Positions 1,426 through 30,554 of a DNA stretch of 64,000 bases are shown here, piece by piece. This stretch comes from Parasphingorhabdus halotolerans (GTDB lineage: Bacteria; Pseudomonadota; Alphaproteobacteria; Sphingomonadales; Sphingomonadaceae). The notes beneath the pieces are model-generated. The model was not told the DNA's origin, did no database searches, and saw only the letters and a list, made by a program, of their open reading frames with translations. The stretch covers positions 2,914,001 through 2,978,000 of the forward strand of contig NZ_CP051217.1 of assembly GCF_012516475.1 (NCBI RefSeq). Reading direction: 5' to 3'. How positions within the stretch are numbered: position 1 is the first letter of the stretch; each line of letters opens with the position of its first letter. The translations under genes were made by a program, and so were the position numbers.

Positions 1426-2238
1426 TCACTGGACCAACAGACCTTCGCTCCCTTCTATATCCAGTCCGCAAATCTCTGCCCTGCCAACAAGGATTCTTAG
1501 ATATTGCGCGACGGCGCGGCGCCAAGTGGATTCTTCCAGATAATCCGCGATTTTGCTTTGCACGGCCTCGAACGGCAGCGTCTCTCCATCCAGTTTTCGT
1601 CCTGCTTTAATGACGTGAACGCCGAAACGGGTTTTTACCGGAACCGGGCACATTTGCCCTGCTTCCAGATTGAACAGGAATGTTTCAAACTCATCAACGG
1701 TTTGGCCCGGTCCGATTTGACCTAGATTGCCGCCCTGTTTGGCCGAGGAACAAGCGGACAACGTTTCGGCCAGTGCTTCAAAACGCTCTGGATGTTCTTT
1801 TAATTCTGCAATTGTATCCACCGCATTGAGTTCTGCCTTGGTATAACGCTTCTTGTCGTCCTGAGGGGCGGCGAACAGGATGTGCGATGCTTCGACCAGA
1901 TCAGGGCTGCTGAACTGAGTAATATTCTGCTCATAGTAACGGCGACAGGTTGCTTCATCGGCGGTCGGTATTTCGACTTCCTGTTCAAGCAACGCTTCGA
2001 TCCTGGCGTCATCGGGCAGCAATTTGCGGCCATTTTCATCGTCAATCAGTGGTGGCTCTATCGACAGGCGATCCGCCTCGGCCAATAGCAGCGTCTTGAT
2101 CGCTAACGCACGCGCTGCTTCTGACCAGGCTTCCTCGGGATTTTTTGCAGGATGATTTTGGGCTTCTGCTGCAATAGCGTCGGGCGGAATTTCTGTGCCG
2201 TTCACTGCAAGTGCGGGTGCTTCTGCTGTCTGTGTCAT
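1426..2238 (-). CDS. Peptidylprolyl isomerase, PpiC/parvulin type, last gene of nar operon
   Basis: A 270-residue protein with a parvulin rotamase domain at about residues 130-235: EASHILFA opens it, GGNLGQIGPGQ is the central loop, and a FGVHVIKAG strand closes it. The N-terminal part is helical, like the NifM/SurA helper region. No signal peptide is visible, so it should act in the cytoplasm or at the inner membrane face. Its start overlaps the narI stop by 4 bases (ATGA), which indicates translational coupling. A parvulin at the end of narGHJI is seen in several proteobacteria and is presumed to help fold or mature the membrane-bound nitrate reductase; that role is inference from position. 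Confidence 0.85.
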   Translation of the reverse strand: MTQTAEAPALAVNGTEIPPDAIAAEAQNHPAKNPEEAWSEAARALAIKTLLLAEADRLSIEPPLIDDENGRKLLPDDARIEALLEQEVEIPTADEATCRRYYEQNITQFSSPDLVEASHILFAAPQDDKKRYTKAELNAVDTIAELKEHPERFEALAETLSACSSAKQGGNLGQIGPGQTVDEFETFLFNLEAGQMCPVPVKTRFGVHVIKAGRKLDGETLPFEAVQSKIADYLEESTWRRAVAQYLRILVGRAEICGLDIEGSEGLLVQ

Positions 2239-2945
2239 AGTCTCGCCTTTTTGCTGCGCGTGATCTGATAGCCCGACCGCCAGACATAACGCACTGGCGC
2301 GGACAGCATGTGCACCAGCCGCGTGAATGGAAAGAGCAGGAAGATCGTCAGTCCCAGAAAAATATGTACCCGGAAAACCCAGTGCGAACCATCAAGGAAC
2401 AGCGAGGCTGTCGGGTTGAAGGTGAAGATGCCATTGGCCCACGCCATAAAGCGCACCATCTGTTCCCCGTCCATATGTCCAAGCGATATCGGCACTGTCG
2501 CTAGCCCCAACGCAAGCTGCAACCATAAAAGGAAAAGAATGCCGGTGTCGGCAAAGGGTGAATTGGCACGGATACGCGCATCGAACAGGCGACGATGAAG
2601 CAGCATCGATGCGCCGACAAAAGCGATGGCTCCCGCAATTCCGCCGCCGAAGACGGCCAGCGCCTGCTTCCATTCATGCTTCACTGCAAGTGAATCGAAT
2701 ATCCAGATTGGCACTAGTAGGCCAACAATGTGGCCAAATAGCACGAATAGTACCCCCGCGTGAAACAGCACAGATCCCCACATCAGCTGCTTGCGACGAA
2801 GGAGCTGGCTTGAACCCGCGCGCCAGCTATAGGGCTCGCGATCATATCGGATAATGGAACCGATCACGAGCACGGCCAGCGCAATATAGGGATAGATGCC
2901 AAAAAGCAGGTGGTTCAGATAATCATCCATTATCGGGCCCTCCAT
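2235..2945 (-). CDS. narI: Respiratory nitrate reductase gamma subunit (cytochrome b) NarI
   Basis: The 236-residue protein has five hydrophobic segments. Histidines sit where NarI binds its two b hemes: LFHAGVLFVLFGH in the second segment and SHWVFRVH plus a later His in the last one. It anchors NarGH to the inner membrane and passes electrons from quinol to NarH. The start at 2945 overlaps narJ by 23 bases; a second ATG at 2930 (MDDYLNHLLFG) fits the shorter N-terminus of the well-studied NarI and may be the true start. The 4-base overlap with the following prolyl isomerase gene supports one transcript. Confidence 0.95.
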   Translation of the reverse strand: MEGPIMDDYLNHLLFGIYPYIALAVLVIGSIIRYDREPYSWRAGSSQLLRRKQLMWGSVLFHAGVLFVLFGHIVGLLVPIWIFDSLAVKHEWKQALAVFGGGIAGAIAFVGASMLLHRRLFDARIRANSPFADTGILFLLWLQLALGLATVPISLGHMDGEQMVRFMAWANGIFTFNPTASLFLDGSHWVFRVHIFLGLTIFLLFPFTRLVHMLSAPVRYVWRSGYQITRSKKARL

Positions 2946-3639
2946 TTGTCATCGCCTGATGCGGCGTTTCGTCCAGCATTTTGCCGAGCATATCGGATAC
3001 TTTCGGGCAGCCATCTTCGGGCGAGCCGGGACCAAAGGTCACTTGCTCCGCCTCCCAGGCTTCATCCAGTGCTTCCAGGTCATCCGGATCATCATCCGGT
3101 TCATTGCGTAGCGCCTCAATCACTTCTGCATCGGCTGGGCCGGACAGCTGACCAAGCGCCCCCAGGACAGCGGCATAGCAACTGTCACGCTTGGCCAGCC
3201 TCTCTCCAACGGCGGCAATTACATGCGCGGGCTCGGAGAGTAACTCCAGCGCCTCGGCAGGTGGCAATATCGAGAGAAATTCGAGAAAGAGCGGGAGAAA
3301 ATCGGGTAATTCGGTGGAATCGATCAATAAGCCTTTTTCTTCATACATGGATTTGAGATCAACCATCGCCTGTCCGCGATCACGGCTCTCACCGTGAACA
3401 TGCTCGAACAGATGCAGCGACAGCGACCGTGTGCGGTCAAACAGCAGCACATAGCGTTCTTGAAGATCAAGCAGGTCGCGTTCGCGATATTCGGCGATGA
3501 TAGGGTTGAGCCGTTTGACAAAAGCCGCTGGAAGCATGCCTTCCTCCTTCAGCAGCGGCAAAAAATCATCCACCGCCTCCTGGATTTCCGCTGTCGGATA
3601 GGTCAGCAGAGCAGCAAGTATCTTGAATGTTTTGGTCAT
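2923..3639 (-). CDS. narJ: Nitrate reductase molybdenum cofactor assembly chaperone NarJ
   Basis: A 238-residue, mainly helical, acidic protein of the NarJ/TorD chaperone family. It starts with the typical MTKTFKILAALLTYPTAE segment and contains the LLDLQERYVLLFDRTRSLSLHLFEHVHGESRDRG signature area near residues 55-90. NarJ binds apo-NarG, allows insertion of the Mo-bisMGD cofactor and holds back membrane docking until NarGH is mature. It overlaps narH by 4 bases and narI by 23, so the three are translated as a coupled series. The C-terminal tail after about residue 190 is acidic and loosely conserved, as usual in the family. Confidence 0.95.
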   Translation of the reverse strand: MTKTFKILAALLTYPTAEIQEAVDDFLPLLKEEGMLPAAFVKRLNPIIAEYRERDLLDLQERYVLLFDRTRSLSLHLFEHVHGESRDRGQAMVDLKSMYEEKGLLIDSTELPDFLPLFLEFLSILPPAEALELLSEPAHVIAAVGERLAKRDSCYAAVLGALGQLSGPADAEVIEALRNEPDDDPDDLEALDEAWEAEQVTFGPGSPEDGCPKVSDMLGKMLDETPHQAMTNGGPDNG

Positions 3640-5180
3640 GTCACATTACCTCCGCCAAAAACTTCAGATGGTGTCTGGATTTTCTGGCGCTTCGACGAAC
3701 CGAACAAGTTGGTCTCCGTCGAACCACCAGAGCAACCATTACCAAACGAGAAGCCGCATTCTCCGCGTTCGTCAAAGGCGTCTTCCGCGTCTTCACGGTG
3801 GCTGGTAGGAATGACGAAGCGATCCTCATAATTGGCAATCGCCATGATGTGATACATTTCGTCGATTTGTGCGGGTGTTAAACCAACCCGTTCGGCAACA
3901 TCGGTAGCAATCACGCCATCAATCGTCTTGGCACGCATATAGCTGCGCATCGCCATCATCCGTTCGAGGCAAAGCGCAATCGGTTCGTCCTTGCCTGCGG
4001 TGAGCAAGTTGGACAGATAGCGCAAAGGAATACGCAGGCTGCGAACATCGGGCATGCCGTCGATAATATCGAGCTGCCCGGCACTGGCTGCTGCGTTAAT
4101 CGGTGACAATGGCGGCACGTACCAGACCATTGGCAAGGTGCGATATTCAGGGTGGAGCGGAAAGGCGACTTTCCATTCCATCGCCATTTTATATACCGGC
4201 GATTTACGCGCCGATTCCAGCCAGGCCTCGGGCACACCGTCTTTCCGCGCCTGTTCGATGACTTCCGGGTCATTGGGATCGAGGAAAATATCAAGCTGCG
4301 CCTGATAGAGATCCTGCTCATCCTCAACCGACGCCGCTTCTTCTATACGGTCGGCATCATAGAGCATCACACCCAAATAACGAATACGCCCAACGCAGGT
4401 TTCTGAACAGACGGTCGGCTGGCCTGCCTCGATACGCGGATAGCAGAAGGTGCATTTCTCCGACTTGCCGCTGTTCCAGTTAAAGTAGATTTTCTTATAG
4501 GGACAACCGGAGACACACATGCGCCAGCCGCGACATTTTTCCTGATCGATCAGGACAATGCCGTCTTCCTCGCGCTTGTAGATAGACCCGGACGGGCAAG
4601 CCGCGACGCAGGTTGGATTGAGGCAATGTTCGCACAGGCGCGGCAGGTACATCATGAATGTATTTTCAAACTCGCCGTACATTTCTTTCTGGATGCCTTC
4701 GAAATTTGCATCCTTGGCGCGTTTTGAAAATTCCCCACCGAGAATTTCTTCCCAGTTCGGACCCCATTCGATTTTCTCCAGCCGCTCGCCCGAAACCAGA
4801 GATCGCGGACGCGCGGTTGGCATTGCCTTCATTTCGGGCGATTTTTGCAGGTGCTCATAGTCGAACGTGAACGGCTCATAATAATCGTCAATTTCGGGCA
4901 TGTCGGGATTGGCGAAGATTTTCGCAAGCAGCCGCCATTTTCCGCCCATTTTGGGGCGAATTCGGCCATTGCGTTGCCGCTCCCAGCCTCCATTCCATTG
5001 CTTCTGGTTCTCCCAATCCTTCGGATACCCGATGCCCGGCTTGGTCTCGACATTGTTAAACCAAGCATATTCCATGCCCTCGCGGCTGGTCCATACATTC
5101 TTGCAGGTGACCGAACAGGTATGACAGCCAATACATTTATCAAGATTCAGGACCTTGCCTATTTGTGCGCAGACTTTCAT
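3636..5180 (-). CDS. narH: Respiratory nitrate reductase beta subunit (iron-sulfur) NarH
   Basis: A 514-residue electron-transfer subunit. Four cysteine groups are visible: CIGCHTCSVTC near residue 16, CEHCLNPTCVAAC near 184, CRGWRMCVSGC near 217, and CTFC followed by CSETC near 244-263. The Trp in CRGWRMC replaces a cysteine, which is the family hallmark that makes this a 3Fe-4S cluster. NarH relays electrons from the NarI hemes to NarG. The gene overlaps narG by 4 bases and narJ by 4. Length and domain order are normal. The C-terminal tail carries an extra short Cys/Gly/Ser-rich piece (GFSFGNGCSGGS), which is variable in the family. Confidence 0.97.
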   Translation of the reverse strand: MKVCAQIGKVLNLDKCIGCHTCSVTCKNVWTSREGMEYAWFNNVETKPGIGYPKDWENQKQWNGGWERQRNGRIRPKMGGKWRLLAKIFANPDMPEIDDYYEPFTFDYEHLQKSPEMKAMPTARPRSLVSGERLEKIEWGPNWEEILGGEFSKRAKDANFEGIQKEMYGEFENTFMMYLPRLCEHCLNPTCVAACPSGSIYKREEDGIVLIDQEKCRGWRMCVSGCPYKKIYFNWNSGKSEKCTFCYPRIEAGQPTVCSETCVGRIRYLGVMLYDADRIEEAASVEDEQDLYQAQLDIFLDPNDPEVIEQARKDGVPEAWLESARKSPVYKMAMEWKVAFPLHPEYRTLPMVWYVPPLSPINAAASAGQLDIIDGMPDVRSLRIPLRYLSNLLTAGKDEPIALCLERMMAMRSYMRAKTIDGVIATDVAERVGLTPAQIDEMYHIMAIANYEDRFVIPTSHREDAEDAFDERGECGFSFGNGCSGGSTETNLFGSSKRQKIQTPSEVFGGGNVT

Positions 5181-8100
5181 TCTGCTGCCTCCAATTTTTC
5201 ACCGGGAATTTCTCCCGGCTGCAGCCGGTCTTTTTCACCATCGAGCCAGTCGACTTCGGTCATCTTGCGAACAATCACGAATTCATCGCGGTTGGAACCG
5301 ACGGTGCCGTAATAGTTGAAACCATAGCTGAGCTGCGCATAGCCGCCGATCATGTGGGTCGGCTTGAGTACAGCGCGTGTAACGCTGTTATGAATGCCGC
5401 CGCGCTGTCCGGTGATCTGTGATCCCGGCACGTTCACGATTTTCTCCTGCGCGTGATACATGAAGAGCGTGCCCTCTTTCATCCGCTGCGAGACCACCAC
5501 GCGGGCGACAAGTGCACCGTTGGAGTTGAACGCTTCAACCCAGTCATTATCGACCAGTCCGGCTTTCTCGGCATCAATTTCCGACATCCACACAATCGGG
5601 CCGCCGCGTGACAGGGTCAGCATCAGCAGATTGTCGGTATAGGTCGAGTGAATCCCCCATTTCTGGTGCGGCGTGATGAAGTTGAGCACAACATGCTTTT
5701 GTCCATCGGCCCGGTCGAGCATTGGCTTGACCGCCTTGGTATCAATCGGTGGACGATAGACACAGAAGCCTTCGCCAAAGGCGCGCATCCATGAGTGGTC
5801 CTGATACAATTGCTGCCGCCCAGTGAGCGTCCGCCAAGGGATCAATTCGTGGACGTTTGTATAGCCTGCATTGTAGCAAACTTCTTCGCTCTCGATGCCC
5901 GACCAGGTCGGTGACGAGATAATCTTGCGCGGTTGTGCGACCACATCGCGATAGCGGATTTTCTCATCTTCTTTTGGCCTTGCCAAATGCGCATGTTCGC
6001 GGCCGGTAAATTCTTCCAGCGCCTCCCATGCCTTGACCGCTACCTCGCCATTGGTTTCGGGTGCGAGCATCAGGATGACCTCGGTGGCGTCGATGTCCGT
6101 ATCGATCTTGGCCATGCCCTTGGTGACACCCTCGTCGGTGACGACACCGTTCAGGTCTCTCAAATGCTGAACCTCATGCGCGGTTTGCCAGGCAATGCCC
6201 TTACCGCCGTTACCGGCTTTATCCATTAGCGGTCCAAGCGCGGTGAATTGCTTGTAAAGATTGGCATAATCGCGCTTTACAACGCTGATTTGCGGCATGG
6301 TTACACCGGGGACCGGATCAATCTCGCCTTTCGTCCAGTCCTTCACATCAAACGGCTGCGCGATTTCACCCGGCGTATCGTGGAGGATCGGTGTCAGCAC
6401 CACATCCTCTTCCTCGCCCAGAACTTCAGGTGCGATTTCGGAGAATTTCTTGGCTATCGCCTTGTAGATTTCCCAGTCGGATTTGGATTCCCATACCGGA
6501 TCAACAGCTGCTGAAAGTGGATGGATAAATGGGTGCATGTCGGAGGTATTGAGGTCATTTTTCTCATACCAGGTCGCGGTCGGTAGAACGATGTCTGAAT
6601 AGACACAGGTAGTGGACATGCGGAAATCGAGCGTGACAACAAGATCAAGTTTACCCTTGGGTGCATCATCATGCCATTTCACATCTTCAGGCTTCACATG
6701 ACCCATCTCGCCAAGGTCCTTGCCTTGAACTCCATGTTCAGTGCCAAGCAGATGCTTGAGGAAATATTCATGCCCCTTACCCGAAGAACCTAAAATATTG
6801 GAGCGCCAGACAAACATGTTGCGCGGCCAGTTGGCCGGATCATCGGGATCGTGACAGCTCAGCTCCAGATCGCCTGATTTCAGCCCATCAACGATATAAT
6901 CTTTCGGTTCCTTGCCGGCCTTGCGCGCCGCCTTGGCAACCTCGAGCGGGTTTGTTTTGAGCTGCGGTGCCGAGGGCAACCAGCCCATACGTTCAGCGCG
7001 GACATTAAAGTCGATCAGCGACCCGCTCATTTCTCCTTCCGGCGCGGTTGGCGAAATTATCTCATCCACTTCAAGCGTCTCGTAACGCCACTGATCGCTA
7101 TGCGCGTAGAAGAAGCTGGTCGAGTTCATCTGGCGCGGCGGACGGTTCCAGTCCAGCGCAAAGGCCAGCGGTTGCCAGCCGGTTTGCGGACGCAGTTTTT
7201 CCTGTCCGACATAGTGCGACCAGCCGCCGCCCGATTGACCAACACAACCGCACATCACGAGGAGATTGATGATCCCGCGATAGGTCATGTCCATGTGGTA
7301 CCAATGGTTGATTCCGGCACCGAGGATGACCATCGACTTGCCCTTGGTCCTCTCGGCATTAGTTGCAAATTCGCGTGCAACCGTCACAATGGTCTCGGCA
7401 GGAACGCCGGTAATTTTCTCCGCCCAAGCCGGGGTATACGGTTCGTTCTCGTTGAAATCCTTGGCGATATTTTCGCCGCCCAAACCGCGATCCAGACCAT
7501 AGTTGGCCATGAATAGGTCATACACCGAGGCAACCAATGCTTCGCCTTTGGCTAGCTTGACTCGCTTCACCGGAACCCGCCTCATCAACTTATCCGGATG
7601 GTCTGTTCCTTTGAAATAGTCATGATCACGATTGCCGAAATATGGGAAGGCTACATCAACAACCGTGTCATGATCACCATCAAGAATATTAGTCAGCTTG
7701 AGCCTTGTATCATTGCCGCCGCTTTCTTTCTCTTCCAGGTTCCATTTACCCTTTTCGCCCCAGCGCGAACCAACCGTGCCATTGGGGACAACGATCTTTT
7801 TGCTCAGTTCGTCATAAGCAACGGTTTTCCAGTCGGCATTTTCCTTCTCGCCCAGTGCATCTTTAAATTCTGACGCACGTAGCAGACGTTCGGGGATGAA
7901 GCTCCCATCTTGTTCAACCAGCCGGACCAGCATCGGCATATCAGAGTATCTACGGGCATAGTCTTCAAAATATTCCGCCTGCCGGTCAAGATGATATTCG
8001 CGCAAGATAACATGACCCATGGCCATCGCCAGCGCGGAATCAGTGCCCTGTTTGGGATGCAGCCACATATCCGAAAATTTCGCGGCTTCGGAATAATCGG

Positions 8101-8944
8101 GTGACACCACCACCGATTTTGCACCCTTGTACCGGGCCTCGGTATAGAAATGCGCATCGGGCGTCCGGGTCTGCGGGACGTTCGAACCCCAGAGCATCAG
8201 GAATCCGGCATTATACCAGTCCGCACTTTCGGGCACATCGGTCTGCTCGCCCCATGTCTGCGGGGAGGCAGGCGGCAAATCGCAATACCAGTCGTAGAAG
8301 GACATACAGGTGCCGCCGAGCAGCGACATATAGCGCGATCCGGCTGCATAAGAGACCATCGACATCGCTGGAATTGGTGAGAAACCAATTACCCGGTCCG
8401 GGCCATATTTCTTAGCGGTGTAAGCATTGGCGGCGGCGATGACTTTCGTCACTTCATCCCATTTGGCGCGTATGAAACCGCCATGACCGCGTACTTTGGT
8501 GTAGCTATCGCGCTTGGCTTTATTCTCGACAATCGAAGTCCAGGCCGCGACCGGTTCCATTGTCTTACGCGCTTCTTGCCACAACCGCATTAAACGGGAA
8601 CGTATCAGCGGATATTTCACCCGGTTGGCGGAATAAATATACCAGCTATAGCTCGCCCCGCGCGAACAGCCGCGTGGTTCGTGATTGGGCAAATCAGGCC
8701 TAGTGCGCGGATAATCAGTCTGCTGCGTTTCCCAAGTGACAATGCCGCCCTTCACATAAACTTTCCAAGAGCAACTACCCGTGCAGTTCACCCCGTGGGT
8801 CGAGCGGACAATCTTGTCATGCTGCCAGCGTTTCCGGTAGCCATCCTCCCAGCGTCGATCCTCGCTCGTGGTGACGCCATGACCGTTGGCATAAGGGGCC
8901 GTGGCCTTGCTGAAGAAATTCAATCGGTCGAGAAGGTGGCTCAT
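5177..8944 (-). CDS. narG: Respiratory nitrate reductase alpha subunit (Mo-bisMGD, catalytic) NarG
   Basis: The 1255-residue catalytic subunit reduces nitrate to nitrite on the cytoplasmic side. Near residues 49-57 it has the HxxxCxxxC pattern (HGVNCTGSC), with a further Cys about 35 residues later (EPRGCSRGASYSW), which together ligate the FS0 4Fe-4S cluster with a histidine. The segment WGSNVPQTRTPDAHF near 220 contains the conserved Asp that ligates molybdenum in this family. The N-terminus lacks a twin-arginine signal, as expected for the membrane-bound, cytoplasm-facing Nar enzyme. It begins 15 bp after narK and overlaps narH by 4 bases. Full length, no breaks seen. Confidence 0.98.
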   Translation of the reverse strand: MSHLLDRLNFFSKATAPYANGHGVTTSEDRRWEDGYRKRWQHDKIVRSTHGVNCTGSCSWKVYVKGGIVTWETQQTDYPRTRPDLPNHEPRGCSRGASYSWYIYSANRVKYPLIRSRLMRLWQEARKTMEPVAAWTSIVENKAKRDSYTKVRGHGGFIRAKWDEVTKVIAAANAYTAKKYGPDRVIGFSPIPAMSMVSYAAGSRYMSLLGGTCMSFYDWYCDLPPASPQTWGEQTDVPESADWYNAGFLMLWGSNVPQTRTPDAHFYTEARYKGAKSVVVSPDYSEAAKFSDMWLHPKQGTDSALAMAMGHVILREYHLDRQAEYFEDYARRYSDMPMLVRLVEQDGSFIPERLLRASEFKDALGEKENADWKTVAYDELSKKIVVPNGTVGSRWGEKGKWNLEEKESGGNDTRLKLTNILDGDHDTVVDVAFPYFGNRDHDYFKGTDHPDKLMRRVPVKRVKLAKGEALVASVYDLFMANYGLDRGLGGENIAKDFNENEPYTPAWAEKITGVPAETIVTVAREFATNAERTKGKSMVILGAGINHWYHMDMTYRGIINLLVMCGCVGQSGGGWSHYVGQEKLRPQTGWQPLAFALDWNRPPRQMNSTSFFYAHSDQWRYETLEVDEIISPTAPEGEMSGSLIDFNVRAERMGWLPSAPQLKTNPLEVAKAARKAGKEPKDYIVDGLKSGDLELSCHDPDDPANWPRNMFVWRSNILGSSGKGHEYFLKHLLGTEHGVQGKDLGEMGHVKPEDVKWHDDAPKGKLDLVVTLDFRMSTTCVYSDIVLPTATWYEKNDLNTSDMHPFIHPLSAAVDPVWESKSDWEIYKAIAKKFSEIAPEVLGEEEDVVLTPILHDTPGEIAQPFDVKDWTKGEIDPVPGVTMPQISVVKRDYANLYKQFTALGPLMDKAGNGGKGIAWQTAHEVQHLRDLNGVVTDEGVTKGMAKIDTDIDATEVILMLAPETNGEVAVKAWEALEEFTGREHAHLARPKEDEKIRYRDVVAQPRKIISSPTWSGIESEEVCYNAGYTNVHELIPWRTLTGRQQLYQDHSWMRAFGEGFCVYRPPIDTKAVKPMLDRADGQKHVVLNFITPHQKWGIHSTYTDNLLMLTLSRGGPIVWMSEIDAEKAGLVDNDWVEAFNSNGALVARVVVSQRMKEGTLFMYHAQEKIVNVPGSQITGQRGGIHNSVTRAVLKPTHMIGGYAQLSYGFNYYGTVGSNRDEFVIVRKMTEVDWLDGEKDRLQPGEIPGEKLEAAE

Positions 8945-8959
8945 TTTTCAGGTCCTCAT

Positions 8960-11704
8960 TCAGGCGGTGGCGGGGATTGGAACGGCGGCTTCTTTGCCCC
9001 GTTCGATATCGTGGAGCAGGCTTCCTCGTCGGGTGTAGTAATTCCAGGTGACCAAGGCGCAGGCGACGTAGAAGATCAGGAATCCCCACAAGGCCGCATT
9101 GGGTGTACCGGTCATCGAAATCGAGCTGCCATAGGCTTTCGGAATGAAGAACGCCCCGTAAGCGGCAATGGCAGAGGTGAAGCCGATAATTGCTGCGGAC
9201 TCCTTCTCTGCGTTGCGCAATTGTTCGTTGGCGGGCAGGTCGGGCATCAGCCGGCCCACTTCCTTGCGCATGATGATCGGGATCATCTGGAAGGTCGACG
9301 CATTGCCGATGCCGGTTGCAAAGAACAGCAGCATGAACATCGCGAAGAAGCCCCAGAATGCACCTTCCTGATCCTTGATACCAAGGAAGTAGAGCACACC
9401 CGCCACCGCCGCGATCATCAAGAGGAACGTCCAGAAGGTAACGCGTCCGCCGCCCCATTTGTCCGAGATCCAGCCTGTGGCAGCACGGGAAACCGCACCC
9501 ACCAAGGGCCCCAGGAACACATATTTCAACGAGTCCACATCAGGGAAGGCAATCTTGCTGAGCAGCGGGAAGCCAGCCGAATAGCCGATAAATGATCCAA
9601 AAGTCCCCGTGTACAGGAAGCACATGATCCAGTTATGCTTGCGCTGAAAAATCACCGCCTGTTCGGAGAAGCTCGCCTTGGCAGAGGCAATATCGTTCAT
9701 ACCGAACCATGCCAGCGCAGAACTGATCAGGATGAAGGGTATCCAGATGAAACCGGCATTTTGCATCCACATCTGGCTGCCATCTTCAAGTGTTTGCGGT
9801 TCGCCGCCGATAGCGCCAAAGACGCCGGCAGTGATGACGATGGGTACGAGGAACTGCATAACCGAGACACCGGCATTGCCGAGCCCTGCGTTAAGTGCCA
9901 GCGCATTGCCCTTCTGCCGTTTCGGGAAAAAGAAGCTGATATTCGCCATCGAAGAGGCAAAATTGCCGCCGCCAAAGCCGCACAGCAATGCCAGCGTCAA
10001 GAAGATAAAATATGGCGTCTCCGGATTTTGCACCGCATAGCCGATACCAAATGCCGGTATCATTAGTGACAGGGTGGTCAGGGTCGTCCAAAGCCGTCCG
10101 CCGAAAATGGGCACCATGAAACTGTAAAATATTCGCAACGTCGCGCCGGATAGGCCCGGTAAGGCGGCCAGCCAGAATAGCTGGTCCGTGGTATAGTTGA
10201 AACCAATGGACGGCAGCTTGGCAACAACCACCGACCAGACCAGCCAGACCGAGAAGGCGAGTAGCAGACACGGAATCGAAATCCACAAATTTCGTTGGGC
10301 AATTTTGGCGCCCTTGTCCGCCCAGAATTCCTCATCCTCGGGCTCCCATTCCTCCAGTAGTTTGGACTGCGCATGGGTTTTTCTGTGAACAGCCGCGTCC
10401 TGGACATTTTCCATTTCGGGGAATTCGGGCAGTTCGGACAATTGCTTGCCAACCGCACGCTGTTCCATCTGACGAACCGAGAAATGCATCCAGGCGAGTG
10501 CGACGCCTACCAGCGCGAACAGCAGCATGTAGCAGCTGGTCCAGATACCGGTAAGATCATTCATCGCGCCAAACGCGATCGGTAGGACAAAACCGCCAAG
10601 CCCGCCAATCATGCCAACCAGACCACCAACGCTACCGACATTCTCAGGATAATAGACCGGGATATGCTTGTAGACTGCGGCCTTGCCGAGCGACATGAAG
10701 AAGCCGAGGATGAAGATCGCCACGACGAAAGGAACCAGACCCATTTCGGTCGAGAAGGCGATTGGTCCCTCAATCCCGTGGATGATGTAGTCCGTCTTTG
10801 GATAGGAAAGCATGAACAGGCAGATCAGCGATACGCCGAACGTTGCATACATGACCTTGCGCGCACCATAGCGGTCAGACAGATGTCCGCCATAGGCGCG
10901 GAACAAGCTGGCGGGGATCGAATAGGCCGCTGCGAGCAGACCCGCGGTCTTGATGTCAAGACCATATACATTGATGAGGTAGTTTGGCAGCCACAGTGCC
11001 AGTGCCACGAAGGCGCCGAAGACAAAGAAATAGTATAGCGCAAATCGCCAGACCTGCTGGTTCTTGAGCGGCTCCAGTTGCATCAATGCGGAACGGGGCT
11101 TCTCTCCACTTTCCCGGCGGGACCTGATGTCCGGATCATCCTCAGTGGCAAACCAGAACACAATCGCAGTTATCGCGAGGACAGCAGCCCAAAGCTGAGC
11201 GACACTCGTCCAGCCATAGGCGACAAGCACCATCGGGGCCAAAAGCTTGGTGACTGCCGCACCGACATTGCCAGCACCAAATATACCCAACGCCGTACCC
11301 TGCCTTTTCTGCTCATACCACTTGGAAACATAGGCAATGCCGACCGCGAAACTGCCGCCTGCCAGGCCAACGCCGAGCGCGGCGATGAGCATAACGATAT
11401 AGCTATCAGCCCATGAGAGCAGGAACGTCGCCAGCGCTGCCGCGAGCATGGTCAGTGAAAATACCAGCCGTCCGCCATATTGGTCTGTCCAGATGCCAAG
11501 GAATATCCGCGACAGCGATCCGGTCAGGATCGGCGTGCCCACGAGCAAACCAAATTGTGTATCGCTAAGCCCGAGATCCTCCTTGATCTGAATGCCAATA
11601 ATTGAGAAAATCGTCCAGACCGCGAAGCATATGGTGAAAGCAAAGGTACTCATCCCCAGGGCTTTGTGCTGTTGGCCCGGTTTTACCTGCGAATTATCCT
11701 GCAT
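8960..11704 (-). CDS. narK: Fused nitrate/nitrite transporter (NarK1-NarK2 type)
   Basis: A 914-residue protein made of two complete major-facilitator NarK domains joined head to tail. Domain one spans about residues 15-435 and has the nitrate signature GGSFAVGIAYVSKWY. A charged cytoplasmic linker (about 435-500) follows. Domain two spans about 500-905 and repeats the signature in the form GGGNFASSMANISFFFP. In characterised fused NarK proteins the first half behaves as a nitrate/proton symporter and the second as a nitrate/nitrite exchanger; that split is carried over here from family knowledge. The start at 11704 has GGGGAAGA upstream. The gene lies 15 bp before narG and is preceded by an FNR-type box, so it heads the nar transcript. 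Confidence 0.95.
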   Translation of the reverse strand: MQDNSQVKPGQQHKALGMSTFAFTICFAVWTIFSIIGIQIKEDLGLSDTQFGLLVGTPILTGSLSRIFLGIWTDQYGGRLVFSLTMLAAALATFLLSWADSYIVMLIAALGVGLAGGSFAVGIAYVSKWYEQKRQGTALGIFGAGNVGAAVTKLLAPMVLVAYGWTSVAQLWAAVLAITAIVFWFATEDDPDIRSRRESGEKPRSALMQLEPLKNQQVWRFALYYFFVFGAFVALALWLPNYLINVYGLDIKTAGLLAAAYSIPASLFRAYGGHLSDRYGARKVMYATFGVSLICLFMLSYPKTDYIIHGIEGPIAFSTEMGLVPFVVAIFILGFFMSLGKAAVYKHIPVYYPENVGSVGGLVGMIGGLGGFVLPIAFGAMNDLTGIWTSCYMLLFALVGVALAWMHFSVRQMEQRAVGKQLSELPEFPEMENVQDAAVHRKTHAQSKLLEEWEPEDEEFWADKGAKIAQRNLWISIPCLLLAFSVWLVWSVVVAKLPSIGFNYTTDQLFWLAALPGLSGATLRIFYSFMVPIFGGRLWTTLTTLSLMIPAFGIGYAVQNPETPYFIFLTLALLCGFGGGNFASSMANISFFFPKRQKGNALALNAGLGNAGVSVMQFLVPIVITAGVFGAIGGEPQTLEDGSQMWMQNAGFIWIPFILISSALAWFGMNDIASAKASFSEQAVIFQRKHNWIMCFLYTGTFGSFIGYSAGFPLLSKIAFPDVDSLKYVFLGPLVGAVSRAATGWISDKWGGGRVTFWTFLLMIAAVAGVLYFLGIKDQEGAFWGFFAMFMLLFFATGIGNASTFQMIPIIMRKEVGRLMPDLPANEQLRNAEKESAAIIGFTSAIAAYGAFFIPKAYGSSISMTGTPNAALWGFLIFYVACALVTWNYYTRRGSLLHDIERGKEAAVPIPATA

Positions 11705-11780
11705 GATGTCTTCCCCGTGATCGCGAGTATTAAACCTGCGATTTTGAGATTCTGTTTGTCAGGCCGGGTGGCCTGCAACA

Positions 11781-11794
11781 TTGATCGAGATCAA
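11781..11794 (-). promoter_or_regulatory. FNR/Anr-type operator upstream of narK-narGHJI
   Basis: The perfect palindrome TTGATCGAGATCAA matches the consensus TTGAT-N4-ATCAA bound by FNR, Anr, FnrL and Dnr regulators. Its centre is 83-84 bp upstream of the narK start. A weak -10-like CAGAAT on the minus strand at 11755-11750 is at about the distance expected for class II activation. The site predicts induction under low oxygen or nitric oxide. The regulator gene itself is not in the window. Confidence 0.8.
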
Positions 11795-11825
11795 AAGCTA
11801 AAATTAATTGCAGTTGTGACCGGAT

Positions 11826-13016
11826 TTATCGGCGGGGCGCAAACAGCATTGGCCCGTAAAGCGCGGCGAACAGAAGGAACCCTGCGGCCCAGATGAATCC
11901 TGCAATGGACATGCCCAGTGCATAGCTGACCCCCGTAAACGGCAGTGATACCCGAAGAAGTGCGCCGACAAAGATAAGCAGATAGATCAGCACAGTTCCC
12001 GCGCCAGCGCGCAGTTCCCGCCCGCAATGCCCCAGGCTCGCCCTTGTCATTATCGCCATCGTTAGCTGTCCGATTGCACCGGTGGTTAGCGCGTGTAGAG
12101 CGTGGGCGGATGTAAGAAGGTCAGGCCGCAATATCGCCAGTCCCATCAATCCAAGTGCAACCGGAATCCAGAAATAGGCAATGTGCAGAATCAGCACCAA
12201 CGGGTCTTTGCCGCATTGCCAGCCGCGCCATCGGATCAATCGGATAGTATGGACCACAGCTGCAATCAAGAAACCGACACCGACCGCCTTCGCATCAGGA
12301 TCGATAATCCAACTCAGTAAGGCAATAACGGCGAACAGCAAGGCGACTTTGTCATAGAGACCGAACGGCGCTGGCATCACCGCCATCCGCTGTTTCTTCA
12401 TCCAGTTGGTTGTGAAAGATGGAATGACCCGCCCGCCGATCAGCATCATCAAAGTCGTTACCAATGCTAGCGCCATTCTCAGGCCGAACTGATAGGGGAA
12501 ACCGAGCGCATCTCCGGCGTGATCGAGCACATTGCTAACCGCCAGCAGCCCGACTAGCAAACAGACGGGAAGATTACGCCAGTTTTTGCCCGCGAGAACT
12601 TCGCACCATGCCAGCCCGGCCACTACGATCAGGAACAGGCAGTCGATGGTTGAGGTCAACAGGCCGTTTCCACCTACAAACATCGCGACACGGCCAGCCA
12701 GCCAAAGCAGGAACAGCAGAACCAAAGGCATACCCATGACCGGCAATCGCCCGGTCCAGTTGGGAATCGCAGTCATTACAAAACCCGCGATCACCGCCGC
12801 GACATAGCCGAAAACCATTTCATGGCCGTGCCAGCCTAGCGCATTGCCCTCGGGTCCAATGGCATAGCCATGGGAGAAAGCCGCCATCCATAAGGGGATG
12901 ACCAGCCCGGCAAAAAGCGCAGCGGAGAAAAAGAACGGACGGAATCCATGGCTGAAGAAGGCCGGGCCGTTATAGGCACGACGCTTCTCGCCGGCAGTTT
13001 GTTCGGAACTGGCCAT
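11826..13016 (-). CDS. NnrS family heme-copper membrane protein
   Basis: A 396-residue polytopic protein with about twelve hydrophobic segments and the NnrS hallmarks: an N-terminal FFSHGFRPFFFSAALFAG segment, then WHGHEMVFGYVAAVIAGF with its paired histidines, and further conserved histidines late in the chain (HALHALTTGAIGQLTM). NnrS proteins bind heme and copper and help cells withstand nitric oxide; they are usually co-regulated with denitrification genes. The start overlaps the stop of the upstream porin gene (TAATG), so the two are translated together. The FNR-type box ahead of the porin should control both. Confidence 0.88.
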   Translation of the reverse strand: MASSEQTAGEKRRAYNGPAFFSHGFRPFFFSAALFAGLVIPLWMAAFSHGYAIGPEGNALGWHGHEMVFGYVAAVIAGFVMTAIPNWTGRLPVMGMPLVLLFLLWLAGRVAMFVGGNGLLTSTIDCLFLIVVAGLAWCEVLAGKNWRNLPVCLLVGLLAVSNVLDHAGDALGFPYQFGLRMALALVTTLMMLIGGRVIPSFTTNWMKKQRMAVMPAPFGLYDKVALLFAVIALLSWIIDPDAKAVGVGFLIAAVVHTIRLIRWRGWQCGKDPLVLILHIAYFWIPVALGLMGLAILRPDLLTSAHALHALTTGAIGQLTMAIMTRASLGHCGRELRAGAGTVLIYLLIFVGALLRVSLPFTGVSYALGMSIAGFIWAAGFLLFAALYGPMLFAPRR

Positions 13017-14321: not shown

Positions 14322-14560
14322 CAGGCAATTTGGGTTTGGGAACTGAAACCTCAGAAACCAGTGATTCGGACCAACTGCTTGAAGGAATTCGGCTGCCCAT
14401 CGCTCTGATTTATCGAGCATGGCTGGAATGCGATAACGAACTTTTTCCGCAATTGCGGAAGCTACCACTAAGGGTCGGAAGTCAAATGTTGACCAAATTT
14501 GATTTGTATTTGAAGAAATTCTGAATCGGATTAGTCATTCAAAAACACATCCCCTTGCAT

Positions 14561-14777
14561 GACATAAACCGCCCCTGTCCGGATGGTGCAAGGACATGCA
14601 ACCCGCGCATTTCAGGGCCGTGTTGTCATCCTGCGGATGCCTGCCCGCGCCACCCCTTCATGCGGGGTTTCCCTCATTGTCATTCGGTGCAGTCCAGACC
14701 CCAACCGGACCTTTCGGGGCTTAGTCAAAGGGATGGTCCCTTGGGCGAACAAAACAGCTTCGAAAAGGAATCTTCAC
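14561..14777 (+). ncRNA. Candidate structured 5' leader of ssb, copy 1
   Basis: This 217-nt stretch ends at the ssb start. Short hairpins are visible: TGTCC/GGACA (14576-14596), CATCC-TGC-GGATG (14627-14639), ACCCC/GGGGT (14652-14668) and AAGGGA-TGG-TCCCTT (14728-14742). In the second copy the last loop changes to TAG while the stem is kept. The copies differ by a one-base indel near 14611, which shifts any reading frame, so conservation as protein is ruled out. It does not match a riboswitch or leader class I can name. Role is inference: a cis-acting RNA or DNA-binding region controlling ssb. Confidence 0.5.
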
Positions 14778-15122
14778 ATGAAAAACACAGTCACACTCGT
14801 CGGCTTCGTCGGAAACGATCCAGAGGTTCGCGAAACCAAGTCAGACGCAACAATCACCAACATCTCTTTAGCAACAACGCGCAGTTTCAAAGACAGTAAA
14901 GGCGAACGCCAGCAGGAAACCGAATGGCACCGCATTACCTGCTTTAATGGTATCGGCAAATGTGTTGCCGAACATGTCACCAAAGGTGCCATGATAATGG
15001 TTACAGGACGTATCCATTACACCAAGTGGACAGATCAAAATGACATCACTCGCTACGGCTGCGAAATCATTGCCGAACAGGTCGATTTTCTTTCCAAGGC
15101 GAAAGCCAAATCCACTGACTAA
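14778..15122 (+). CDS. ssb: Single-stranded DNA-binding protein, short form, copy 1
   Basis: The 114-residue protein is a single OB-fold of the SSB family: MKNTVTLVGFVGNDPEVRE opens it and a RQQETEWHRITCFNGIGKCVAEHVTKGAMIMVTGRI core follows. The usual long flexible tail with an acidic tip (DDDIPF) is missing, so it probably cannot recruit partners as the housekeeping SSB does. The start at 14778 has AAGGA upstream and is shared with the second copy; a longer in-frame ATG inside the leader is rejected because the frame is not conserved. About 10 percent of residues differ from the copy at 27991. Plasmids, phages and integrative elements often carry such accessory SSBs. Confidence 0.9.
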   Translation: MKNTVTLVGFVGNDPEVRETKSDATITNISLATTRSFKDSKGERQQETEWHRITCFNGIGKCVAEHVTKGAMIMVTGRIHYTKWTDQNDITRYGCEIIAEQVDFLSKAKAKSTD

Positions 15123-15148
15123 TCGCAACCAACATTGCAACTTTCCAA

Positions 15149-15182
15149 GGCCCGGTAGCGGATGCTACCGGGCCTTTCTTTT
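15149..15182 (+). terminator. Rho-independent terminator after ssb copy 1
   Basis: An 11-bp perfect stem GGCCCGGTAGC / GCTACCGGGCC with loop GGAT is followed by TTTCTTTT. The same terminator follows the second ssb copy. Confidence 0.9.
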
Positions 15183-15485
15183 GTTCGATTAGTCAAAACG
15201 AAAAGCGGTCGTTTCGGAAATACGAAACGGCATTTCCCTCACTGGTAATCCACCCTCAAACCGCACCGCAGTTTGCATGAACAAGATGGCTATTTGTTAC
15301 CAGAACGCCTTTTGATGAGAACAAACCTCTTTCAATAAACTCTATCCATCAGACGCCGGATCGGCTATGAAGTCCGCCGGTAACGGGGAGAAATGAGTTC
15401 TTTTCGTCTTCCAGATCACCAAGATCAAAACATGTCCGAATAGGGAACAACAAAGTGCACACCGTACGCAATCTAGATTGCATGA
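15183..15485 (+). other. Gene-free gap between ssb copy 1 and the recombinase pair
   Basis: No credible gene is seen. The gap holds a perfect 7-bp inverted repeat CGTTTCG / CGAAACG at 15210-15229 and then AT-richer DNA leading to the first recombinase. An attachment or recombinase binding site would be expected here, but no clear core repeat can be shown. Confidence 0.4.
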
Positions 15486-16727
15486 ATGAATGGAAAACGG
15501 CATAAAACTCGCAAACATGATTCCTCAAATGACCAGCAGTTAGCTGGGTCAAAATTACAGGGGGTCTCCCGTCGCAGAAAGACCATACGCCTAAAGCTGG
15601 ACGGTAATGTCGCAAGGCGCACTTCGCTCAAGGTTGGCGTGACATGGGATATTGAACTTCCCGGATTTGGATTGCGCAAGCGGTCAAACGGAAAAGTTAC
15701 ATGGGTCGTCAAATATAGGTATCGCGGACAGCAGCGGATGAAAACGTTGGGCGCGGCAAGGGCGGTGCCAGCTCATATTGCAAGAGCCGAAGCAAGGAAG
15801 CTGATTGCGGAGGCTGCGCTTGTTGGGCTGCCCACAAAACCAAAGCAAAAATATGTTCCCAGATTTGATGAGTATGTTCACGAGTTCTGGCGCGACTATG
15901 CGCAGCACTGGAAGCCAACAACGCAAAAGGCCTGTCAGGGATATATTGCGCGGGAGTTAGTGCCGGTATTTGGAAAGATGCAGATTGACCAGATCGAACG
16001 CGTAGATATTAACCGATGGCGCGATGCGCTGTCCAAGCGGACCGGTGTTTTCAATCGTACCATCCCACTAATGTCTGTAATGATGCGCTATGCCGAGCAA
16101 TTGGGTCACCGGCCCAAGGGAACAAATCCCTGTCGCGGCGTATCCCGCTACAAGCGCGACCTTCCGGAACGCTATCTGTCGCCAATTGAATATAAGCGCT
16201 TGGGCAGGGTATTGGCAGATTCTGAACTTCCCAACCCGGATGTTGTTCCGGCAATCCTTATGCTTCTTTATACCGGAGCCAGAGCCTCCGAAATCGAAAC
16301 GCTGCGCTGGCGCTATATTCAAATACCGCGCCTCGTGCTGCCCGATAGCAAAACCGGTCCCAAGACCATCTATTTGAACAGACAAGCCGTTGATGTGCTG
16401 AATGCGCTTGAACAGGGCAAGCCGGATGATTTTGTCTTTCAGGCAACAAGGTCAGGCGACCCAATCAACCTAAGCCAGTACTGGCATAAAATAAGAAAGC
16501 GCGCCGCGCTTCCCGATGTGAGACTTCACGATTTGCGCCACAGCTTTGCTTCGACTGCCATTGCAGATGGCATTCCGCTGGCTATCATCGGAAAATTACT
16601 CGGCCATGCTCTTCCGGAATCTACAGCGCGCTATGCGCATCTGGCAGATGATGTGATCTGTGAATCTGCCGAACGTGTCTGTTCCGGCCTCGCGTCTCAG
16701 ATGGGGATTTCTCATGACCAGCTATGA
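15486..16727 (+). CDS. Tyrosine recombinase/integrase, first of an overlapping pair
   Basis: A 413-residue phage-type integrase. An arm-binding N-terminal region (to about residue 110) with basic start leads to a core-binding helical domain and a catalytic domain from about residue 215. The catalytic set is visible: Arg in TGARASEIETLRW, HDLRH (His and second Arg), LLGHALPE and the nucleophile Tyr in STARYAHL. It reads into the next recombinase, with which it overlaps by 14 bases. An ATG four bases upstream is out of frame. The pair lies directly after ssb copy 1 on the same strand. Confidence 0.9.
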   Translation: MNGKRHKTRKHDSSNDQQLAGSKLQGVSRRRKTIRLKLDGNVARRTSLKVGVTWDIELPGFGLRKRSNGKVTWVVKYRYRGQQRMKTLGAARAVPAHIARAEARKLIAEAALVGLPTKPKQKYVPRFDEYVHEFWRDYAQHWKPTTQKACQGYIARELVPVFGKMQIDQIERVDINRWRDALSKRTGVFNRTIPLMSVMMRYAEQLGHRPKGTNPCRGVSRYKRDLPERYLSPIEYKRLGRVLADSELPNPDVVPAILMLLYTGARASEIETLRWRYIQIPRLVLPDSKTGPKTIYLNRQAVDVLNALEQGKPDDFVFQATRSGDPINLSQYWHKIRKRAALPDVRLHDLRHSFASTAIADGIPLAIIGKLLGHALPESTARYAHLADDVICESAERVCSGLASQMGISHDQL

Positions 16728-17889
16728 TCTGAAACGCGTCATTGGCGAAGAGCTTGCCCGCGTTGAAAACCGGTTTGATAAATTCGGCAAACCGGAGCGC
16801 AAAACAGTCTTTGACAAAGTCGTTCCTGGCTTTGGTGTGCGCAAACATGCGTCAGGCAGAAAGGTCTATATCTTGCAAATGCGCATAAGCGGACGGCAGC
16901 GCACGGTCACGATTGCCAATGCTGCGGTGATCAGTGAAACGGTGGCAAAGGACGTCGCACGGCGTCTTATCTTGCGCATTGAGCTTGGAATGAACCCAGC
17001 GGATGAAAAGAAGCGCTCTCATGACATGCCCAGCTATCAGCAGTTTCTGGAATATTATTGGGAAACTTCATCGCCCAATTGGAAGCCATCGACACGAAAG
17101 ACTCAGAGTTTCTATCGCGGCAAGCATTTGAACAAGGCCTTCGAAAGCAAATTTCTTGATGAGATTGAACCTGCCGATGCCATCCGTTGGCACGCGCAGC
17201 TATCCCGCGCAGCAGGGCCGGGCGCGGCCAACCGCGCCAGTGAAATTTTGCGCGCCATGTTCAACAAAGCCGAGCAGTGGGGATATCTTCCGGAAAACAG
17301 CAATCCGTTTAATGCGATCAGACGCAATCGGGGACGCAAGATCGAGCGCTTCCTGACGCCCGAAGAAGCGGCACGATTGGGAAAGGCGCTTATCGAAGCC
17401 CGCAAAGACGAGCCGATGATCGCGACGATCATCATGTTGTTGGCTCTGACTGGTTGCAGGCGAGGGGAGATCGTCAATCTCAAATGGTCGGAGGTGCATG
17501 GACGCCGCCTGAAGCTGAAGGACAGTAAGACTGGGCCGCGTATCGTCTGGCTTGGGAAAGATGCGCAGGCGCTTATTGCAAGCATCCCGCGCCAGAAAGG
17601 TGAGGCGCGGGTGTTTCCTATGGAACAGAAAAGGCCCGGTGGCGCGGTCGGGTGTTTTTGGGCGAATTTCAGAGAGGAAATTGGCCTAAAGGATGTGCGG
17701 CTTCATGATTTACGACATAACTATGCCAGTTTTGCTGCGCGGGGATCAGAGACGCTGCCGATGATTGGAAAGTTGTTGGGGCATGCAGCGATCAATTCTA
17801 CACAACGCTACGCTCATCTTGATGATGCTACGTTGCTGGAAGCGAGTAATCGAATAGGGGATGTAGTGGGAAACAACCTATTCCATTAG
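16714..17889 (+). CDS. Tyrosine recombinase/integrase, second of the pair
   Basis: A 391-residue recombinase from the ATG at 16714, which has GGGGAT just upstream; the open frame extends further back but lies inside the first gene. The catalytic residues are in TGCRRGEIVNLKW, HDLRHNYAS, LLGHAAIN and STQRYAHL. It resembles its neighbour in domain order and motifs, so the two look like an old tandem duplication that has diverged. The 14-base overlap implies coupled translation, and the two proteins may act as a hetero-complex; that is inference. No third recombinase follows, so this is not the three-gene RIT arrangement. Confidence 0.9.
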   Translation: MTSYDLKRVIGEELARVENRFDKFGKPERKTVFDKVVPGFGVRKHASGRKVYILQMRISGRQRTVTIANAAVISETVAKDVARRLILRIELGMNPADEKKRSHDMPSYQQFLEYYWETSSPNWKPSTRKTQSFYRGKHLNKAFESKFLDEIEPADAIRWHAQLSRAAGPGAANRASEILRAMFNKAEQWGYLPENSNPFNAIRRNRGRKIERFLTPEEAARLGKALIEARKDEPMIATIIMLLALTGCRRGEIVNLKWSEVHGRRLKLKDSKTGPRIVWLGKDAQALIASIPRQKGEARVFPMEQKRPGGAVGCFWANFREEIGLKDVRLHDLRHNYASFAARGSETLPMIGKLLGHAAINSTQRYAHLDDATLLEASNRIGDVVGNNLFH

Positions 17890-27523: not shown

Positions 27524-27558
27524 GGAGCGAGTGGCTGGGGCCACTCGCTCCTTTCTTT
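27524..27558 (+). terminator. Rho-independent terminator after marR
   Basis: An 11-bp stem GGAGCGAGTGG / CCACTCGCTCC with loop CTGGGG is followed by TTTCTTT. It ends the marR transcript. The 188 bp after it, up to the repeat at 27747, show nothing I can interpret. Confidence 0.9.
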
Positions 27559-27774
27559 ATGCAAATGTCGGCAGTTGGTGCAATCGGCGTCTTGTTTTAT
27601 TTGCGGGCTAGTGCCTGCTTTTGCGCCCAAAACGGGCAGAACCAGACTGGCTGCAAACGGCCCACAAGACGACATCGTGCCCTCCCAAGTGAAGCGGCAT
27701 TCATTCGCCCTATTTTGGACGCCTCAATCCTTTTCACCAGTTTTTGTCATCCAAAAAACACATCCCCATATCTG

Positions 27775-27990
27775 ACATAAACCGCCCCTGTCCGGATGGT
27801 GCCTGGACCTGCAACCCGCGCATCTTCAGGGCCGTGTTGTCATCCTGCGGATGCCTGCCCGCACCACCCCTTCATGCGGGGTTTCCCTCATTATCATTCG
27901 GTGCAGTCCAGACCCCAACCGGACCTTTCGGGGCTTAGTCAAAGGGATAGTCCCTTGGACGAACAAATAGCTTCGAAAGGTACTTCAATC
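27775..27990 (+). ncRNA. Candidate structured 5' leader of ssb, copy 2
   Basis: This 216-nt stretch pairs with the leader at 14561. The hairpins CATCC/GGATG, ACCCC/GGGGT and AAGGGA-TAG-TCCCTT (27942-27956) are kept, and loop bases differ from copy 1. An extra C in GCATCTTCAG moves the reading frame relative to copy 1. About eight differences are seen in the central 180 nt, fewer than in the gene that follows. Confidence 0.5.
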
Positions 27991-28335
27991 ATGAAAAACA
28001 CAGTTACACTCGTCGGCTTCGTAGGAAACGATCCGGAGGTTCGCGAAACCAGGTCAGATGCAACGATTACCAACATCTCACTCGCCACAACTCGGTCCTA
28101 CAAAGACAGTGAAGGAGAACGCCAGCAAGAAACCGAATGGCACCGGATCACCTGCTTCAATGGTATCGGCAAATGCGTTGCAGACCATGTCACCAAAGGA
28201 GCCATGATAATGGTCACAGGACGTCTACATTATACCAAGTGGACAGACGATAAAAACGTCACTCGTTACGGCTGCGAAATCATCGCTGAGCAAGTTGATT
28301 TTCTCTCCAAGGCGAAAGTCAAATCTGCTGATTAA
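27991..28335 (+). CDS. ssb: Single-stranded DNA-binding protein, short form, copy 2
   Basis: A 114-residue OB-fold SSB, about 90 percent identical to the copy at 14778. Differences are mostly conservative (Lys/Arg, Phe/Tyr, Glu/Asp, Ile/Val) and most DNA changes are silent, which points to purifying selection on both copies rather than one being dead. It too ends soon after the OB-fold, without the acidic tail. The ATG at 27991 is chosen because it aligns with the other copy and with SSB N-termini; the longer open frame through the leader is chance. Same terminator as copy 1. Confidence 0.9.
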   Translation: MKNTVTLVGFVGNDPEVRETRSDATITNISLATTRSYKDSEGERQQETEWHRITCFNGIGKCVADHVTKGAMIMVTGRLHYTKWTDDKNVTRYGCEIIAEQVDFLSKAKVKSAD

Positions 28336-28361
28336 TCGATACAAACATTCCAACTTTCCCA

Positions 28362-28396
28362 GGCTCGGTAGCATTCGCTACCGGGCCTTTTTCTTT
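28362..28396 (+). terminator. Rho-independent terminator after ssb copy 2
   Basis: Stem GGCTCGGTAGC / GCTACCGGGCC with loop ATTC and one G-T pair, followed by TTTTTCTTT. It is the counterpart of the terminator at 15149. Confidence 0.9.
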
Positions 28397-30479: not shown

Positions 30480-30554
30480 TGGTGACCCCTACGGGAATCG
30501 AACCCGTGTTTCAGCCGTGAAAGGGCCGCGTCCTAACCGCTAGACGAAGGGGCC
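30480..30554 (-). tRNA. tRNA-Glu (UUC)
   Basis: Read on the minus strand, a full cloverleaf is seen: acceptor GGCCCCT / AGGGGTC, D-arm with TAGCGGTTAGGA, anticodon stem-loop with CCTTTCACG giving anticodon UUC, and T-arm GGTTCGATTCC. Discriminator A and CCA are encoded. It is intact. Its 3' end faces the P4-type integrase, so it is the likely insertion site of the island. Confidence 0.97.

Follow-up and report, generated by a model that had tools for sequence, protein, structure and literature searches.

The two ssb genes of the window (the whole 64,000-nt stretch of Parasphingorhabdus halotolerans DNA analysed here) are each preceded by a copy of a structured element, and we think it probable that this element represents a new sequence family of Frpo-like single-stranded-DNA promoters, situated in the leading regions of conjugative or integrative elements. 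Computation establishes the family, its linkage to particular genes, the covariation of its helices and the strand that folds, and in a subset of loci also the leading-region position and the orientation of a nic-like site.

The leader pair and its family

Element copy 1 (14546-14746) and element copy 2 (27760-27960, core 27812-27960) lie on the minus strand and score 151.4 bits (match 14599-14746) and 151.3 bits, respectively, with a covariance model; the 5' arm of copy 1 comes from comparative pairing. Behind them stand ssb copy 1 (14778-15122, plus strand; PF00436, 2e-30) and ssb copy 2 (27991-28335, plus strand; PF00436, 3.2e-30), each encoding 114 aa, and the genome holds four element copies. 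The leaders at 14561-14777 and 27775-27990 differ by 16 mismatches and 3 gaps over 218 aligned columns. Their central part (14571-14745) shows 7 mismatches and 2 gaps in 176 columns, which bears out the roughly eight differing sites counted in the initial annotation, and the ssb coding parts are unlike at 48 of 345 bases (13.9%), in line with its figure of about 14 percent. At the codon level, 43 of 115 differ, 32 synonymously and 11 not. The 300 bases 5' of the leaders do not align between the copies (102 matches in 372 columns), and therefore the conserved block begins at about 14541-14546, earlier than first placed. It is also longer than it first appeared, as it includes a 5' arm (14547-14564) that forms pairs with 14724-14735.

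The initial annotation had described a leader more conserved than the gene behind it. This is true of the window pair but is not a rule of the family: of the 10 comparisons made with copy 1, one of them against window copy 2, the core had the higher identity in 6 and ssb in 3, and the two were equal in 1. The excess conservation of the window pair may therefore partly reflect recent exchange; gene conversion between the two copies is possible, yet it cannot account for the whole family. The one-base indel that shifts the reading frames between the copies, first taken as a reason against protein coding, is present, and a second indel brings the frame back, so that both copies have an in-frame ORF of 179 aa. 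The leader portions of this ORF translate differently, and a protein-coding leader was rejected on the frame-shifting indel together with the unlike leader peptides. Stems that are kept while their loops vary were also rightly noticed, as both AAGGGA-TGG-TCCCTT (the terminal hairpin of copy 1, 14728-14742) and AAGGGA-TAG-TCCCTT are present.

A search of the window against 4227 Rfam families gave no match to the leader, only two tRNAs reaching the gathering score, which agrees with the first impression that no named leader class fits. BLAST revealed three homologues on plasmids of Novosphingobium and Sphingobium, all typed conjugative and one of them MOBP, and within the window's family (Sphingomonadaceae, judged by the plasmid hosts) it matched 49 of 397 genomes. 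With the covariance model R1, the element is seen in 123 of these 397 genomes. A class sample contains the element in 4 of 385 genomes, two of them outside the family (G556 and G723), and an order sample, whose share beyond the family is not stated, in 96 of 396, all of the same family. R1 was built with CAAC/GTTG as the outer helix, a pairing later superseded by AACCCG//CGGGTT (helix P2); its structure is therefore partly wrong, and the model probably recognises the element largely through its sequence.

A model search of 58 + 72 sources gave 159 hits, among the matches listed. Three places were counted twice (L003/L114, L004/L115 and L025/L067), which leaves 156 places, and the 159 hits represent 128 distinct cores, or 144 distinct sequences with 250-nt flanks. 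Helices were counted in 123 copies; five of the distinct cores lacked an anchor and were omitted (L004, L007, L090 and the first element each of L091 and L094). Strand folding was compared in 46 representatives of less than 88% identity.

Helices and the strand that folds

The pairings read from the 123 anchored copies comprise the closing helix P0, the helices P1 and P2 (AACCCG..//..CGGGTT), the hairpin P3, an optional P5 and the terminal hairpin. P0, formed in copy 1 by the 5' arm and its distant partner given above, is a long-range closing helix with a bulge, and its arms pair in the 123 copies. The 5' arm of P1 (14592-14598), whose placement in copy 1 was read from the sequence, pairs with 14690-14695, and the 5' arm of P2 (AACCCGCGCAT, 14600-14610) pairs with ATGCGGGGTT (14660-14669) and reaches up to 18 paired columns in relatives. 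Comparison of own with swapped arms among relatives of at most 70% identity gave 9.38 versus 5.63 for P2, 10.82 versus 7.52 for P0 and 5.83 versus 4.05 for P1. The 5' side of the terminal hairpin, which has 98.6% of its cells paired with compensatory changes, overlaps the 3' arm of P0, so the two pairings exclude each other. In L094, L095, L096 and L097, P3 has grown into a long branched hairpin and the rest of the element is retained; the model hits there are 185-187 nt long, compared to about 150 nt usually.

We also examined P2, P3 and the terminal hairpin in an alignment of 23 rows (A2). The results show that 81.1% of the cells are paired, compared to 70.2% in shuffles, and that 46 cells are changed on both sides against 18.4 in shuffles, a count reached by none of 500 shuffles. 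Pairing falls to 28-50% when the partner is shifted by one to three columns, and the further pair types in A2 show no excess over shuffles (15 versus 16.8). Relatedness is only partly removed by these controls and by the arm swaps. The initial annotation had proposed a covariance-model search across relatives and had named homologues lacking compensatory changes, or a known Rfam family, as findings against it; the search brought out covarying stems upstream of ssb or another gene, and neither of the adverse findings emerged. CGCACC//GGTGC is a further candidate helix; it would be pseudoknotted with P2 and is too invariant to judge. The 5' arm of P0 (e.g. 14554-14559) carries a bulge of about 5 nt, T-rich in many copies, which breaks the closing helix even though the pairs on either side of it change; it could serve as an opening point.

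In 45 of the 46 representatives, DNA parameters give a lower z to the strand complementary to ssb, that is, the template strand (mean -3.64, versus -2.56 for the sense strand), and consensus folding likewise favours this strand. The sense strand is not the better folder even under RNA parameters, where the antisense strand is lower in 36 of 46. The bias is absent from the control DNA, with 25/46 for downstream coding DNA and 16/46 for upstream DNA; a tRNA strand control was set aside, as it comprised only 3 tRNAs. When the P3 loop is replaced by a self-complementary one, the template strand is still better in 43 of 46. The same strand bias holds for Frpo, in four stretches out of four that represent three elements (F Frpo1, L173 and two lengths of F Frpo2). 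The window copy taken alone is unremarkable (z -0.89 for the template strand and -0.20 for the sense strand), and its structure is visible only in comparison.

The P3 loop is three bases long in 102 of the 123 copies. Among the distinct P3 hairpins, TNC is the sense-strand loop in 27, so that the template strand reads GNA there; the mirror type does not occur, and 12 hairpins have other triloops. In copy 1, the P3 hairpin CATCC-TGC-GGATG (14627-14639, minus strand) presents the GNA-type loop GCA on the minus strand. A portion of PMC4686876 describes GNA and GNNA loops on G-C stems as unusually stable DNA hairpins. An excess of A-C over G-T mismatches in the stems had looked decisive as strand evidence; it failed the arm-swap control and was discarded because swapped arms show the excess too. 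The preference for the template strand does not extend to the terminal hairpin, which leans to sense G-T pairs (9:8 to 31:13); some of the element may thus function as RNA. For the window copies, we place the functional fold on the minus strand, which is the ssb template strand and the predicted transferred strand.

Downstream genes and nic-like sites

All of the 159 hits examined, among the matches listed, have one of two genes downstream, ssb in 129 and a YAcAr/SLOG gene in 30, with a median distance from the core to the start codon of 22 nt and 48 nt, respectively. The second gene served by the element encodes a YAcAr/SLOG-domain protein of about 317 aa (L086:5918-6871 and L074:8737-9684), a candidate anti-defence factor. 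An ssb without the element is found at L110:2917, about 5.8 kb from an ssb that has one, so not every accessory ssb carries it.

The 58 longer stretches show a recurrent gene order on one strand: a ParB-like gene, ArdC, the element with YAcAr, and the element with ssb, joined by TrwB and TrwC in a subset. This setting of ParB, ArdC, YAcAr, ssb and relaxase is a conjugative leading region. Of the 58 stretches, 20 contain both ssb and a TrwC/MobF relaxase, the latter always downstream on the ssb strand, and L178, the continuation of L177, has the relaxase and no ssb. Queries with TrwC and MobF found no such relaxase in 37 of the 58 stretches; these include most of those with a third ssb type (L074 to L083, for instance), and some of that type have another ParB match on the downstream side. 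By analogy, the 37 stretches, most of the third-ssb-type ones among them, would also hold a leading-region position. In L074 (4788-6716), a group II intron reverse transcriptase lies between ardC and the first element.

A motif reminiscent of a nic site, GCACACCnnACGC, is found in the interval that separates ssb from the transfer or integrase genes, mostly with GGGAAC or similar before it and an inverted repeat after it. Exact motifs number 19, in 18 of the 58 stretches, against a chance expectation of 0.48 under uniform composition; two of them are in the window, and all are downstream of ssb on its strand. Some stretches are closely related (e.g. L086 and L088), so these sites are not all independent. 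The exact motif is missing from 40 of the 58 stretches, including most with the third ssb type. A relaxed search with one or two mismatches, which is unspecific, also placed the motif after the other two copies of the window's own genome and on the three plasmids. Applied to 19 ssb genes, it gave matches after most and nothing convincing after L074, L081, L105, L107 and L109. Since its reverse-strand control also returned a site with one mismatch (in L007), the counts are limited to exact sites. F carries GCACCACACCCCACGC, which we take to be its nic region, in the same orientation relative to the F ssb, and CACACCCCACGC is common to L094, L096, L097 and the F site. From its position, orientation and likeness to F, we therefore infer that the site is an oriT; the strand complementary to ssb, the template strand, would then be the transferred one, and the element would be part of the leading region.

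Both window copies fit this layout. Copy 1 is followed by ssb, a terminator-like hairpin (15147-15176, plus strand), the putative oriT (15443-15484; GGGAAC, then GCACACCGTACGC at 15457-15469 and an inverted repeat; minus would be the nicked strand) and two tyrosine recombinases matching PF00589, intA (15486-16727) and intB (16660-17889), both on the plus strand. Behind copy 2 come ssb, a terminator-like hairpin (28361-28388, plus strand), the putative oriT (28675-28715, minus strand; GGGAAC, then GCACACCCTACGC at 28687-28699 and an inverted repeat) and the tyrosine recombinase intC (29063-30313, minus strand; PF00589) beside a tRNA gene (30483-30554, minus strand). Another terminator-like hairpin lies upstream of copy 2 (27524-27551). 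The arrangement of ssb, oriT-like site and two tandem tyrosine recombinases with no relaxase between them (window 15443-17889) recurs in L176, L179 and L185, as if ssb, oriT and integrases travelled together as a mobilisable island. No relaxase was found in the window by a scan of 29 proteins and a homology search, and thus the window loci look like small integrated islands, at most mobilised in trans, or remnants. A search for attachment repeats of the tRNA gene within the window gave no 18-mer repeat. The sole TrwC match of the genome (G000:C1:440550-441353, in a 960-aa open frame) adjoins the fourth element copy, near L115; no convincing match to the coupling protein TrwB was found in the genome, and this locus is perhaps a mobilisable, not self-transmissible, element. 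Directly to the left of copy 1 (1426-13016) lie respiratory nitrate reductase genes, together with genes for an NnrS protein and for an MFS transporter of 914 aa that has three matched stretches.

Comparison with Frpo and alternative readings

The single-stranded promoter work on Frpo is reportedly that of Masai and Arai in 1997. Like the Frpo/ssi sequences of F and ColIb-P9, the element lies in the leading region before ssb and a second gene, with the genes pointing to oriT, and occurs as two copies a few kb apart; like Frpo (F Frpo1, F Frpo2 and L173), it has a transferred strand that folds better than its complement. Two defining traits of Frpo can be followed through the family. A leading-region position with the transferred strand as template is seen wherever it could be judged (relaxase in 20/58, nic-like motif in 18/58, the oriT being putative), and a stable, conserved fold of the transferred strand is seen in 45/46, together with the controls and the covariation. 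The available part of PMC9849209 states that Frpo1 and Frpo2 are required for early expression of the F leading genes, and that of PMC11541004 that gene families enriched in leading regions share an orientation in which the transferred strand is the template. The element differs from Frpo in having no sequence match to it (searching 20 kb of the F leading region with R1 gave 0 hits at E<=10, in this one direction), in being GC-rich without the A/T-rich stretch of F, and in having no recognised -35/-10 boxes. It also differs from Frpo/ssi in its occurrence in Alphaproteobacteria and in its neighbours, which are YAcAr/SLOG and ArdC, not psiB. No consensus promoter was found in either window leader region, and -35/-10 boxes are not enriched in the 46 elements (mean percentile 0.43 versus shuffles; 1/46 with at least 9 of 12 matches). 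The linear sigma-70 scan behind these figures also fails on Frpo, so the lack of boxes neither helps nor hurts.

We propose that, during conjugation, the ssb template strand would enter the recipient early and single-stranded, and that the element of about 200 nt would fold on this strand through P0, P1, P2, P3 with its GNA loop and sometimes P5. The folded element would act as an Frpo-like single-stranded-DNA promoter at which RNA polymerase initiates. SSB would be made before the complementary strand exists, and the YAcAr/SLOG protein likewise from the second copy. Expression in the recipient would be early and transient, and protective genes would probably be on at once. A bolder form of this proposal, which we offer tentatively and regard as rather doubtful, is that the elements form an independent class of ssDNA regulators, in which the fold and the nearly invariant CCGTGTTG / CTGCCCGCACCACC, not -35/-10 boxes, drive first-minute expression in the recipient across the family, also on small relaxase-less islands with an oriT such as the two in the window.

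The main rival, which we judge unlikely, is a single-strand initiation site (ssi, or priming origin), where the folded transferred strand would recruit primase, primosome or RNA polymerase and ssb would be expressed from the new duplex. The same strand and leading-region evidence speaks for this, and the original Frpo paper, going by its title as given in PMC11541004, assigns Frpo both transcription and primer synthesis. However, a pure priming site needs neither a position just before a start codon, as found in 159/159 hits among the matches listed, nor repetition ahead of a second gene.

The initial annotation had suggested a cis-regulatory RNA, perhaps binding SSB, or a DNA site; a structured cis element it is, and the DNA site is the better description. 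We consider improbable a leader RNA on the sense strand through which translation or attenuation of ssb would be controlled, e.g. by SSB binding. The element does lie close to the start codon, with a terminal hairpin near it that contains sense G-T pairs, and there is also folding on the sense strand (mean z -2.6). Like the cis-regulatory leaders of Rfam, it is structured, conserved and upstream of a gene, but it matches none of their families. The RNA reading is not favoured because the opposite strand folds better (45/46) and carries the GNA loops, because the element also precedes the YAcAr/SLOG gene, and because the opposite strand is the transferred one wherever a relaxase or nic-like motif is seen.

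A duplex operator of a leading-region regulon, bound by a plasmid repressor, has little to recommend it in our estimate. The CUP elements of the IncN plasmid pKM101 are likewise conserved and repeated before several leading-region genes, and are described in part of PMC6289460 as binding sites of the repressor ArdK, but the ArdK consensus given there is 13 nt, whereas the element here is a covarying, strand-biased single-strand fold of about 200 nt. An antisense non-coding RNA folding as seen is scarcely credible: RNA parameters also favour the antisense strand (36/46), but DNA parameters are more consistent (45/46), the loop type is known from DNA, and antisense promoters are not enriched (mean percentile 0.39).

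To our knowledge, the tested single-stranded promoters known so far are all enterobacterial. Two surveys, as far as the accessible portions of the articles describe them, used BLAST with five known Frpo/ssi sequences plus promoter-consensus candidates (PMC11541004) and with the same five plus 13 putative sequences (PMC12826799), and both would probably miss the Sphingomonadaceae family. No description of such an element from Sphingomonadaceae came up in the literature searched, subscription papers and supplements (including the candidate lists of PMC11541004) aside. Covariation combined with strand asymmetry across many genomes is evidence for a functional ssDNA fold, and this combination could reveal such elements elsewhere. 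The approach could also mark leading-region genes as early-expressed and point to anti-defence candidates such as the YAcAr/SLOG protein, and how RNA polymerase or primase reads folded ssDNA becomes testable.
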